From contig JAIRRY010000001.1 in the NCBI GenBank assembly GCA_031255735.1, positions 1 through 34,296 on the forward strand: a DNA stretch of 34,296 bases, written 5' to 3'. Made by a program: the position numbers and the translations under genes. Below, in pieces: positions 3,841-7,165 of the stretch (positions within the stretch are counted from its first letter, which is position 1; each line of letters begins with the position of its first letter). The notes below the pieces were generated by a model. It saw only the letters and a program-made list of their open reading frames with translations, was not told where the DNA came from and searched no databases. The DNA is from Candidatus Nomurabacteria bacterium. GTDB lineage: Bacteria > Patescibacteriota > Saccharimonadia > Saccharimonadales > Saccharimonadaceae.

Positions 3841-5256
3841 CTAGGCGTAGTTATCTGTCCAGTCGTTTTGCATGAGCACAATGTCGCCAACGGCCACAAA
3901 CTTATCTAAGTTTTCATAAAAACCTAACGGATCATCCACCATGGTGAGCTTACCCGCAAAACCGGCGCGCGCCAGCTCATCAGCTATATAGCCCGTTACG
4001 GAATTTCTCATCAGCACCACTTCGTCAACCTTACCAAGTAGCAACTGCCCAATTGCGCGATGGTTTACCTCAGTTTTATCACCTTGTTCTACTAAACCTG
4101 GCGTCACATAAATTCTACGACTAGCGTGCAGCTCGTCGAGCAGTCTTAACCCAGCACGCACACCGTCCAGATTGCCGTTATAGGTGTCGTCGATGATGGT
4201 CGCGCCGTTGAGGTCGTAAGGTTGCATGCGATGCTCGAAAGGCCGAAGTTCTTTCAACCCAGCACGAATTTCACCGTCACTAAGCCCCATTTTCTGCGCT
4301 AGTTCCACCGCTGCCGAAACAATGCCGATATTATGCCTCCCCAACAGCCCAGAGTCTACTTTAAACTTACCCAAGGAGAACGTAGTGTCAAACGCGCCAA
4401 TTTTTACATTCGTTACCACATTATTCTCAGTTCCATCTTCACTATACATAGTAGTATGCTCATCATCTTCACGCGCTAACACTTCGTTGTCGCTATTTAG
4501 GTAAAGTGGCTGATTTTTCAAATAGTCTTTCAAGCTAAATATATCGTCTAGAATATTCTGTGTAGTTTTAAACGATTCCAGATGCGCGTCGTTGATACCC
4601 GTGATGAAACCAGCGTCTGGATCAACGAATTCGCACATTTTTGCAATATCGCCTGGACGGTACTCGCCTAGCTCAAAAATTAAAATATCTTCGTTGCCCT
4701 TGGTGCTCATTATGAAACGCGCCAAACCGAGTGCTTGGTTAATATTACCTGGCGTTGCTGCTACTTTGCGCCCGCCGCTTAGTACGGTTCGCAACACTTC
4801 TTTGGCACTAGTTTTGCCGTAGCTGCCCACAATCGCAATTTTGTAGCCGCCGTGACCTTTGATATATTGCTTAGCCATGTTGATAGTGTTCCATTCTAGC
4901 GGCTTCTGTACTACATAACGCCCAATCGTAAGCGGCGCAATTAGCACAAACGGCGCTAGAAGCGGTAAACACAAAATGGCCACTATGGCCAAACCATAAC
5001 TCAGAATAGTATTAACAGACATAGCCACCCAAAATATCAGCCCAGTATACACTAATACAAACAGTGCTAGGCATAAAAAAAGTAGCTGCACTTTTAAAGT
5101 TGGCACCATTTGCCCGCGACGCGCCACGGTGCGGAAATCTTTAACCCTGTGTAGCCATTTCAAGTATTGCGGGATGTCATATTCTACCTGTTGGAGCATA
5201 TATAGCAATGTGCGCTCGTAATTTAGAGTTAGCGTTGAACAGTATTTTTTAATCAT
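3841..5256 (-). CDS. Membrane-anchored Mur-ligase-like (MurF-type) protein
   Basis: ATP-dependent amide ligase fold of the Mur family. Two or three membrane segments lie at about residues 54-80 and 84-112. The Mur catalytic core follows: P-loop GSYGKTS (144-150), ELGEYRPGD with Glu195, GINDAHLESF with His225, GRHNIG (307-311), a DDTYNGNLDG box (356-365, the MurF YNANPxS position) and a C-terminal Rossmann-like domain. The N-terminal UDP-MurNAc-peptide-binding domain of normal MurF is absent and replaced by membrane helices, so the substrate is uncertain; a lipid-linked precursor is possible. The ATG overlaps the hydrolase stop (ATGA), which indicates translational coupling. Confidence 0.85.
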   Translation of the reverse strand: MIKKYCSTLTLNYERTLLYMLQQVEYDIPQYLKWLHRVKDFRTVARRGQMVPTLKVQLLFLCLALFVLVYTGLIFWVAMSVNTILSYGLAIVAILCLPLLAPFVLIAPLTIGRYVVQKPLEWNTINMAKQYIKGHGGYKIAIVGSYGKTSAKEVLRTVLSGGRKVAATPGNINQALGLARFIMSTKGNEDILIFELGEYRPGDIAKMCEFVDPDAGFITGINDAHLESFKTTQNILDDIFSLKDYLKNQPLYLNSDNEVLAREDDEHTTMYSEDGTENNVVTNVKIGAFDTTFSLGKFKVDSGLLGRHNIGIVSAAVELAQKMGLSDGEIRAGLKELRPFEHRMQPYDLNGATIIDDTYNGNLDGVRAGLRLLDELHASRRIYVTPGLVEQGDKTEVNHRAIGQLLLGKVDEVVLMRNSVTGYIADELARAGFAGKLTMVDDPLGFYENLDKFVAVGDIVLMQNDWTDNYA

Positions 5257-5978
5257 TTCAGAAAATCCGCAATTAAGTCTGCTACTTCATCGGATTTATC
5301 TAAAAATACGTAGTGCCCGGCGTTAGGCAGGATGTGCAATTTAGAGTTCGGAATTTTGGCCTCAAAAATCTTGGCGTCCGAAATCGGGGCTTCGGTGTCG
5401 TTTTCACCCCAAACCAGCAAGCATGGGAGCTTGATTTTAGGCATGTACGCCGTTAGGTCTTCACTAATAACCTTCTTGAACACTTCACGTATCACGCCGT
5501 TAGTGGCCGCGTAGTCGCTAGAACGCATTCTTGCCGCTACGTTTTTGAACCCTGGCAGTTTAGCGAATGGCCTGCCGAGCTTCAATAACCTATGTTTAGC
5601 GCTCATCTGTGGTTTCACGCCTGCTGAGCCTAAAAAGACCAACTTTTCGGCCTTAAACTTTCCCTCGCCCACACCTTTTAGTATGATACGGCCACCGAAA
5701 GAGTGCCCAACAATCGCGTAGACGTTTTCTAGCCCCAGCTTCTTAGTAAACTCAGCTACAAAATTGGCATAACTGGCTACATCCCAGGCGGTTTTTGGCT
5801 CGTCGCTACCACCAAAACCAGGAAGATTTAGCCCGACTACACGGTACCTACTCTTTAGCTCAGCAAACAAACCATCGAAAGCTGCGGCATTCGACCCCCA
5901 ACCGTGCAAAAACAACAACACCTTACCCTTACCAATATCTGTATACTCGGTCATCAATCCGTCAACAACAAGTTTCAT
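5253..5978 (-). CDS. Alpha/beta hydrolase
   Basis: Serine hydrolase of the alpha/beta fold, 241 aa, probably cytoplasmic. Oxyanion motif HGWG (25-28), nucleophile elbow GHSFGG (Ser93), acid Asp194 in GENDTEAP and His222 in NAGHYVF complete the triad. The substrate cannot be told from sequence. The ATG at 5978 is chosen because TGTTATAAT lies 6 nt upstream and matches the leaderless pattern; a longer reading frame extends to 6029 but would run through the promoter. It forms a two-gene operon with the Mur-like ligase through an ATGA overlap, which suggests an envelope-related job. Confidence 0.88.
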   Translation of the reverse strand: MKLVVDGLMTEYTDIGKGKVLLFLHGWGSNAAAFDGLFAELKSRYRVVGLNLPGFGGSDEPKTAWDVASYANFVAEFTKKLGLENVYAIVGHSFGGRIILKGVGEGKFKAEKLVFLGSAGVKPQMSAKHRLLKLGRPFAKLPGFKNVAARMRSSDYAATNGVIREVFKKVISEDLTAYMPKIKLPCLLVWGENDTEAPISDAKIFEAKIPNSKLHILPNAGHYVFLDKSDEVADLIADFLK

Positions 5979-5993
5979 GCTAGAATTATAACA
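5978..5993. promoter_or_regulatory. Divergent overlapping -10 elements for two leaderless genes
   Basis: Only 14 nt separate the two ATGs. Plus: TGC-TAGAAT (5978-5986), 6 nt, ATG of rarA. Minus: TGT-TATAAT (5993-5985), 6 nt, ATG of the hydrolase. The -10 hexamers overlap by two bases and each TG extension lies inside the opposite start codon region, so RNA polymerase cannot occupy both at once. Confidence 0.75.
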
Positions 5994-7165
5994 TGCAAAG
6001 AGTACCACTGGCGGAACGGATGCGCCCAACTAAACTGAGTGAGGTTGTTGGCCAATCACACTTGGTTGGCGATGGCCAGATTTTAAACCGAATAGTTGAG
6101 CATGCCGAGCCGGTCAACCTAATATTCTGGGGGCCACCTGGCACAGGCAAAACCACTTTGGCGCGCATCATAGCTAGCGAACTTAAAGCCGATTTCGTAG
6201 AAATTTCGGCCGTCACCAGTGGTAAAAAAGATGTCGAGAAGATTGTTGAGCACGCTCGTCAAAATTGGAATCTGCAAACCCGCACGGTTTTATTTGTCGA
6301 TGAAATTCATCGCTTCAACAAGGCGCAGCAAGACGCATTTTTACCGCATGTTGAAAGTGGCTTGATCACTTTAATTGGCGCTACCACTGAAAACCCCAGC
6401 TTTGAAGTTATTGCACCACTACTCAGCCGTTCACGCGTATTAGTGCTCGAACCACTTAGTAAAGAAGCCACCTTGGGCGTCTTAAAACGAGCTTTGAAAG
6501 AGCTGAAGGCCACGAAACGCGTTGGTAAAACTGCACTCGATTACCTAGCCGAACTATCTGGCGGTGATGCGCGCGTGGCGCTAGGCAACCTAGAACTCGC
6601 CCTTGGCCTAGCTAGCAAAGTAGACGTTGAAATCGTTAAGCAAGCCGCCCAAAAAGCTGTGCCAGGCTACGACAAAAAAGGCGAAAACCATTACAATATC
6701 ATCTCAGCTTTTATAAAAAGTATGCGCGGTAGCGATGTGGACGCGGCGCTTTATTACCTCGCCCGCATGGTGCAAGCTGGCGAAGACCCTAAGTTTATTG
6801 CCCGCCGCATGGTGATTTTTGCTAGCGAAGACATTGGGCTGGCTGGCAACGGTGCGTTAGGGCTAGCACTCAACGCCTTTATGGCCGTAGAGCGCATCGG
6901 CATGCCCGAAAGCGGCATCATCTTAAGCCACGTGGTAGTGGCGCTAGCTAAAGCCAAAAAATCCCGACAAAGCTACGACGCCTGGGCCAAAGCGCAAACC
7001 CTAGCTGCCCGCACGCCAAACTTACCCACGCCCATCTGGCTACGCAATGCGCCCACCAAGCTCATGAAAGATCTCGGCTACGGCAAGGGCCAAAAGTGGG
7101 AAGCTGGCTTCCATCTAGATAAAAATTATCTACCAGATGCTATAAAAGACGAGCGACTCTTTTAA
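5993..7165 (+). CDS. rarA: Replication-associated recombination protein RarA (MgsA) AAA+ ATPase
   Basis: AAA+ ATPase of the clamp-loader clade acting at stalled replication forks. Walker A GPPGTGKTT (47-55), Walker B VLFVDEIHRF (99-108), sensor 1 GATTENPSF (129-137), sensor 2 in SGGDARVALGNLE, and the MgsA C-terminal domain with SAFIKSMRGSDVDAALYYLA and ASEDIGLA. The length (390 aa) is close to the usual 400-450. No SD is present; the start follows an extended -10 by 6 nt. Its stop lies 4 nt from the convergent obgE stop. Confidence 0.97.
   Translation: MQRVPLAERMRPTKLSEVVGQSHLVGDGQILNRIVEHAEPVNLIFWGPPGTGKTTLARIIASELKADFVEISAVTSGKKDVEKIVEHARQNWNLQTRTVLFVDEIHRFNKAQQDAFLPHVESGLITLIGATTENPSFEVIAPLLSRSRVLVLEPLSKEATLGVLKRALKELKATKRVGKTALDYLAELSGGDARVALGNLELALGLASKVDVEIVKQAAQKAVPGYDKKGENHYNIISAFIKSMRGSDVDAALYYLARMVQAGEDPKFIARRMVIFASEDIGLAGNGALGLALNAFMAVERIGMPESGIILSHVVVALAKAKKSRQSYDAWAKAQTLAARTPNLPTPIWLRNAPTKLMKDLGYGKGQKWEAGFHLDKNYLPDAIKDERLF

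Follow-up and report, generated by a model that had tools for sequence, protein, structure and literature searches.

The window analysed here, a stretch of 34,296 nt from an assembly of 652 kb in 29 contigs, contains a pair of divergent genes whose start codons are separated by 14 nt (Table 1). The rightward gene, rarA (mgsA), encodes a replication-associated recombination AAA+ ATPase with matches to the AAA, AAA_assoc_2 and MgsA_C domains, whose nearest named relatives are mostly from Candidatus Saccharibacteria, and the leftward gene encodes an alpha/beta hydrolase that is likely in one operon with the MurF-like ligase gene. The domain matches establish both rarA and the hydrolase as real genes, in agreement with an earlier sequence-only reading of this DNA, and both start codons agree with the N-termini of relatives (MNRIPLAE.. 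for RarA; MKLVVDG.., MKIVVNN.., MKVLVDG.. and MHCIVDG.. for the hydrolase). In the ligase only the middle and C-terminal Mur domains match; its N-terminal part is hydrophobic-looking by eye and perhaps membrane-anchored.

Table 1. Features of the rarA/hydrolase locus in window coordinates
Feature	Position	Strand	Remarks
MurF-like Mur ligase	3841..5256	-	middle and C-terminal domains matched; 4-nt overlap with hydrolase stop
alpha/beta hydrolase, 241 aa	5253..5978	-	Abhydrolase_1 match
near-palindromic 20-bp unit CATGCTAGAATTATAACATG	5976..5995	.	carries both start codons and both extended -10s; reads CAT + GCTAGAATTATAAC + ATG
predicted start site, A of hydrolase ATG	5978	-	from 6-nt distance (leaderless)
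extended -10 of rarA	5978..5986	+	TG 5978-5979, TAGAAT 5981-5986
14-nt spacer GCTAGAATTATAAC	5979..5992	.	between both ATGs
extended -10 of hydrolase	5985..5993	-	TG 5993-5992, TATAAT 5990-5985
predicted start site, A of rarA ATG	5993	+	from 6-nt distance (leaderless)
rarA/mgsA, replication-associated recombination AAA+ ATPase, 390 aa	5993..7165	+	domain matches

Geometry of the 20-bp unit

The two ATG codons diverge across exactly the 14-nt gap given by the sequence-only reading, and each is preceded by an extended -10 element (TGCTAGAAT for rarA, TGTTATAAT for the hydrolase) that carries a TGn ahead of its hexamer (TGC and TGT) and ends exactly 6 nt before its own ATG, within the spacing of about 6-7 nt expected of leaderless genes. 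The hexamers overlap by 2 bp (5985-5986), as do the -10 elements of bidirectional promoters, confirming the proposal of overlapping extended -10s on opposite strands; the term "face-to-face" used for them is a misnomer, however, as it normally denotes convergent promoters and these are divergent (back-to-back). The elements are further interlocked through the start codons: in either TG, the T is the base-pairing partner of the A in the opposite gene's ATG (the hydrolase ATG for the rarA-side TG, the rarA ATG for the hydrolase-side TG). The layout as a whole obeys the palindrome CATGnTAnnATnnTAnCATG. A skeleton of this arrangement, CATNNTANNATNNTANNATG, which is looser than the full layout, is found once in the window, and since even this looser form is absent from all 100 dinucleotide shuffles of the window, the layout is not a product of chance. 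Scoring for sigma70-type -35/-10 pairs gave none at the 5976-5995 unit. The -10 positions place the predicted start sites of the two genes 15 bp apart, and the 20-bp region, both start codons included, may be about the smallest possible control region for two genes.

Predicted leaderless starts and conservation at the rarA locus

In a 215-kb sample of the genome (190 long ORFs, 493 candidate ATGs), strong -10 hexamers (at least 5/6 match, TA...T) peak at 6 nt before candidate ATGs, with 25 occurrences at this distance and 12 at 7 nt compared to a mean of 3.5 over the remaining 23 distances. A simple rule classes 34 of the 190 ORFs as leaderless-looking, 66 as having an SD-like motif only and 90 as having neither; TGn accompanies 23 of the 34 leaderless-looking ORFs, and a -35-like hexamer 10 of them, the latter a count without a control. 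Among rarA relatives, 130 of 137 loci were kept after those with poor start alignment, duplicates or short upstream sequence were dropped, and a strong -10 lies at exactly 6 nt in 74 of these 130 distinct relatives and at 5-8 nt in 100, while the remaining 30 loci lack one at 5-8 nt and count against a leaderless-promoter reading. Because a -10 at these distances is so common among the 130 loci, the rarA start would be, as judged from sequence composition only, an ordinary leaderless start for its lineage. The genome-wide peak at 6 nt and the 100 rarA relatives thus lend support to the idea of two leaderless genes sharing a minimal region. In genus g12 (L010-L034 in part) rarA often lacks a -10 at its start and seems to lie downstream of a co-oriented gene, so that its leaderless promoter may have been lost there.

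The gene pair, the spacer length and both -10 elements are kept in L003, the only other genome of the genus searched. Its spacer (GTTAAAATTATATC) is identical to GCTAGAATTATAAC at 11 of 14 positions, and all three changes fall outside the TA..AT..TA bases. Over the same comparison the RarA proteins are 89% identical (52% at rarA third codon positions) and the hydrolases 49% (61% for the DNA), such that 11 or more identities in 14 would be expected by chance with P 0.04 at 52% and P 0.14 at 61%. Base identity in the spacer, being only mildly unexpected, is therefore weak evidence when taken alone, and the maintained spacer length and register would be the stronger point.

Conservation of the 14-nt spacer in relatives, which the sequence-only reading had offered as a check, holds for this one congener but does not extend to other genera, where the hydrolase/rarA pair is kept with spacers of 22, 24 and 40 nt; in one of the relatives (L183) no hexamer resembling a -10 is seen at the position expected for the hydrolase. 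Further divergent rarA cases have spacers of about 34 nt (L178) and 53 nt (L153), and in L179 rarA faces a ddl-like gene across a spacer of 20 nt with TATACT positioned 6 nt before both ATGs. The FGGES-motif gene divergent from rarA in this and other genomes (e.g. L114, L131) is presumably a D-Ala-D-Ala ligase. At the 103 rarA loci with a -10, the divergent partner is ddl-like by motif in 28, the hydrolase in 5 and another gene in 38, with none within 160 nt in 32. The partner of rarA thus varies between genera while its own -10 is mostly retained, which argues against a switch dedicated to rarA and the hydrolase, and such a switch was rejected as the default interpretation.

Recurrence and spacing of facing -10/ATG layouts

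The same set of 101 family genomes was searched at several spacers for facing ATGs that each have a TAnnnT hexamer 6 nt upstream, with the reversed pattern as control. Spacers 14, 15, 16 and 20 are directly comparable, since each fixes 12 bases (10 are fixed at 17 and 22), and gave 39 sites against 10 in the control, 9 against 3, 5 against 4 and 39 against 10, respectively. Spacer 22 is also enriched (142 sites against 80), and spacer 17, the equivalent of the 18-bp start-site distance of E. coli, gave 102 against 75. Totals for spacer 22 were typed in and then summed by calculation; those for the other spacers and for the phylum scan below were tallied by eye from tables.

Sites were scored as lying between two ORFs when both divergent ORFs reached 80 aa, or 60 aa if running off the stretch. 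This holds for 17 of the 39 sites at spacer 14 (the other 22 are not between two long ORFs), 1 of 9 at spacer 15, 0 of 5 at spacer 16 and 27 of 39 at spacer 20, and for 0 of 20 sampled sites at spacer 17 (hand-picked from the listing with their ORFs unseen beforehand) and 6 of 30 at spacer 22 (those retrieved for the test). The ORF-flanked share at spacer 14 exceeds that at spacer 17 (Fisher P 0.0002) and that at 15 and 16 together (P 0.02), with the qualification that sites within one genus are not independent; a pooled Fisher value, which combines completely and incompletely sampled spacers, was disregarded. At spacer 14, TG is present on both sides in 15 of the 17 ORF-flanked sites compared to 5 of the 22 others (P 7e-5). 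The canonical 18-bp E. coli layout was rejected as an explanation, given the spacer-17 count and the absence of ORF-flanked sites in the spacer-17 sample. A uniquely favoured spacer of 14 was likewise rejected, as spacer 20 equals or surpasses it and spacer 22 shows enrichment too. The spacer-20 class (L338-L376, in family genomes) has a shared AGTATACT or ATTATAAT core, and several of its gene pairs recur between genera.

Across the phylum the extended palindrome was found at 22 sites in 18 of 379 genomes, with no control sites; 17 of these sites lie outside the family, 11 of them between two ORFs. Thirty genomes outside Patescibacteria had no sites, yet gave just 3 control matches, so that a restriction to the lineage is only suggestive. 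A second spacer-14 site in the genome that contains the window is CATGTTACAATTGTAAGATG (L250, G000:C26:8837-8856), which lies between a gene for a VTT-domain protein and an 81-aa ORF.

The gene pairs joined by spacer-14 sites are mutually unrelated and mostly housekeeping: DNA polymerase I/GmrSD_C-domain protein, class II tRNA synthetase (GlyRS by our own reading)/ABC transporter, TsaE/Mur ligase, triosephosphate isomerase/HAD hydrolase, RNase HII/unknown, SmpB/glycosyltransferase, seryl-tRNA synthetase/DprA and thymidine kinase/uracil-DNA glycosylase. The RNase HII pair persists in three genomes (G021, G073, G096), and the 16 genomes of genus g2 contain 19 spacer-14 sites, 11 of them between ORFs, with the tRNA synthetase/ABC transporter pair in 3 of the 16 and the TsaE/Mur ligase pair in 4 (repeat pairs beyond the scanned copies were matched by N-termini only).

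These data bear on two further explanations. The unit is a near-perfect 20-bp dyad and some copies are perfect (CATGGTATAATTATACCATG, CATGCTATAATTATAGCATG), as would be expected if the palindrome were an operator for a dimeric regulator, instead of or in addition to a promoter. However, the start codons and -10 elements already account for all conserved bases, the cores differ between sites (TATAATTATA, TACAATTGTA, TAAAATTGTA), the gene pairs are unrelated, and a further cluster of real pairs, at spacer 20, is built on another core, making an operator highly improbable. Alternatively, two ordinary leaderless promoters may have come close by chance, their interlock bringing no benefit. The other plausible divergent pairs in the genome sample, selected for a -10-like hexamer 4-9 nt upstream of each ATG, have wider spacers of about 31 to 58 nt, which would make 14 nt the short end of a range, but the count at spacer 14 is far above those at 15 and 16 for an equal number of fixed bases and the pairs in genus g2 persist, so we regard this explanation as unlikely, if less so than an operator.

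A possible reason for the recurring spacings emerges when two ideal TGnTATAAT-6 nt-ATG promoters are laid facing each other at spacers of 0-32 nt and checked for base conflicts. With the TG included, every spacer from 4 to 29 except 14 produces a conflict (at spacers 0-3 each promoter falls wholly inside the other gene). The full-consensus sequence at spacer 14 is CATGnTATAATTATAnCATG, in which AT is common to both -10s and the TG of either promoter is the complement of C(-1)A(+1) at the opposite gene. Without the TG, spacers of 11, 12, 14, 20, 22 and at least 24 fit and those of 15, 16, 17 and 19 conflict; spacer 14 is unique only for the full consensus with TG on both sides. The rule was derived after the counts for spacers 14, 15, 16, 17 and 22 were in hand, and the count for spacer 20, the only one made afterwards, agreed with it. 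The calculation thus suggests that avoidance of base conflicts explains the 14-nt spacing.

A probable shared bidirectional promoter for two leaderless mRNAs

Taken together, we consider it probable (roughly 80%) that the unit is a shared bidirectional promoter of the sigma70 type serving two leaderless mRNAs, those of rarA and the hydrolase. RNA polymerase would recognize one of the two extended -10 elements (TGnTATAAT-like) with no need for a -35, melt the same short stretch in either direction, and initiate at the first base of a start codon, that of rarA on one strand or that of the hydrolase on the other, so that both transcripts would start with AUG and be translated in leaderless form. 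With 14 nt between the ATGs, the -10s would interlock through the self-complementary AT that they share. At either start site A(+1) would supply the T, and C(-1) the G, of the opposite TG, so that the start codons would double as promoter bases. Occupancy would be exclusive from moment to moment, with both genes probably constitutive and largely independent.

Bidirectional promoters have been described in bacteria by Warman, Grainger and colleagues as divergent starts 7-25 bp apart around overlapping -10s, enabled by -10 symmetry (PMC10268837; this and the other papers are represented here by part of their text). The rarA/hydrolase unit resembles them in its overlapping divergent -10s and in its predicted 15 bp, which lies within this range. 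It differs in that 15 bp is not among the common E. coli distances of 18, 10 and 23 bp, reported as a preference and not a limit (PMC12825309), and in that both predicted starts are at start codons with each TG built from the opposite one. Leaderless genes of Deinococcus-Thermus, in which a -10 hexamer just upstream of the ATG drives a leaderless mRNA (PMC12340547), and those of a bacterial survey (PMC3160421) share with the present locus a -10 adjoining the ORF, but here two such promoters are interlocked.

The E. coli work also bears on regulation. Simultaneous binding is sterically excluded at bidirectional promoters (PMC12825309), and the 2-bp overlap of the -10s would make it impossible here on the same principle, supporting the earlier claim that polymerase opens one direction at a time. 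Strong activation of one direction can repress the other in E. coli (PMC12825309), so that competition for the shared -10 could in principle act as a mutually exclusive switch with anti-correlated expression of rarA and the hydrolase. However, all five E. coli bidirectional promoters tested were too weak at the basal level for competition, losing one direction barely changed the other, and interference arose only once one direction was activated (PMC12825309). The absence of a scored -35 partner suggests modest promoter strength at the rarA/hydrolase unit, for which we know of no activator, the partner of rarA differs between genera, and the layout joins mostly unrelated housekeeping genes. 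The claim of mutually exclusive expression is thus unsupported and such a switch is very unlikely, whereas independent constitutive expression from the shared promoter is the simpler expectation, as no -35 partner was scored and the partners of rarA change.

Bidirectional promoters and leaderless -10 promoters are each already known, and the rarA/hydrolase unit would be a compact combination of the two. The words "divergent" and "bidirectional" do not occur in the accessible main text of PMC12340547 or PMC3160421, and no description of an interlocked leaderless bidirectional promoter was found in the open literature, including the accessible parts of PMC10268837, PMC12340547, PMC12641178 and PMC3160421, nor was any start-site mapping in Saccharibacteria; subscription papers lay mostly outside this search, leaving absence unproven. 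More broadly, we would give about even odds that interlocked leaderless bidirectional promoters have evolved repeatedly in Patescibacteria and form separate classes, with compatibility of the two consensus elements determining the spacing. One class would be the 20-bp CATGnTATAATTATAnCATG unit, with a 14-nt spacer, in which each start codon supplies extended -10 bases for the opposite gene; the other, 26 bp long, would have a 20-nt spacer and share a core of AGTATACT or ATTATAAT.

If this is correct, coding start and promoter would be under joint selection, with few bases fixing the expression ratio of two genes. A simple rule, that facing consensus elements have no base conflicts, fits which spacers recur, and the geometry of gene starts may allow leaderless expression to be tested in bacteria that have not been cultured. 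These units would also offer a natural system in which to ask if two-way promoters couple their genes or are just economical of space.
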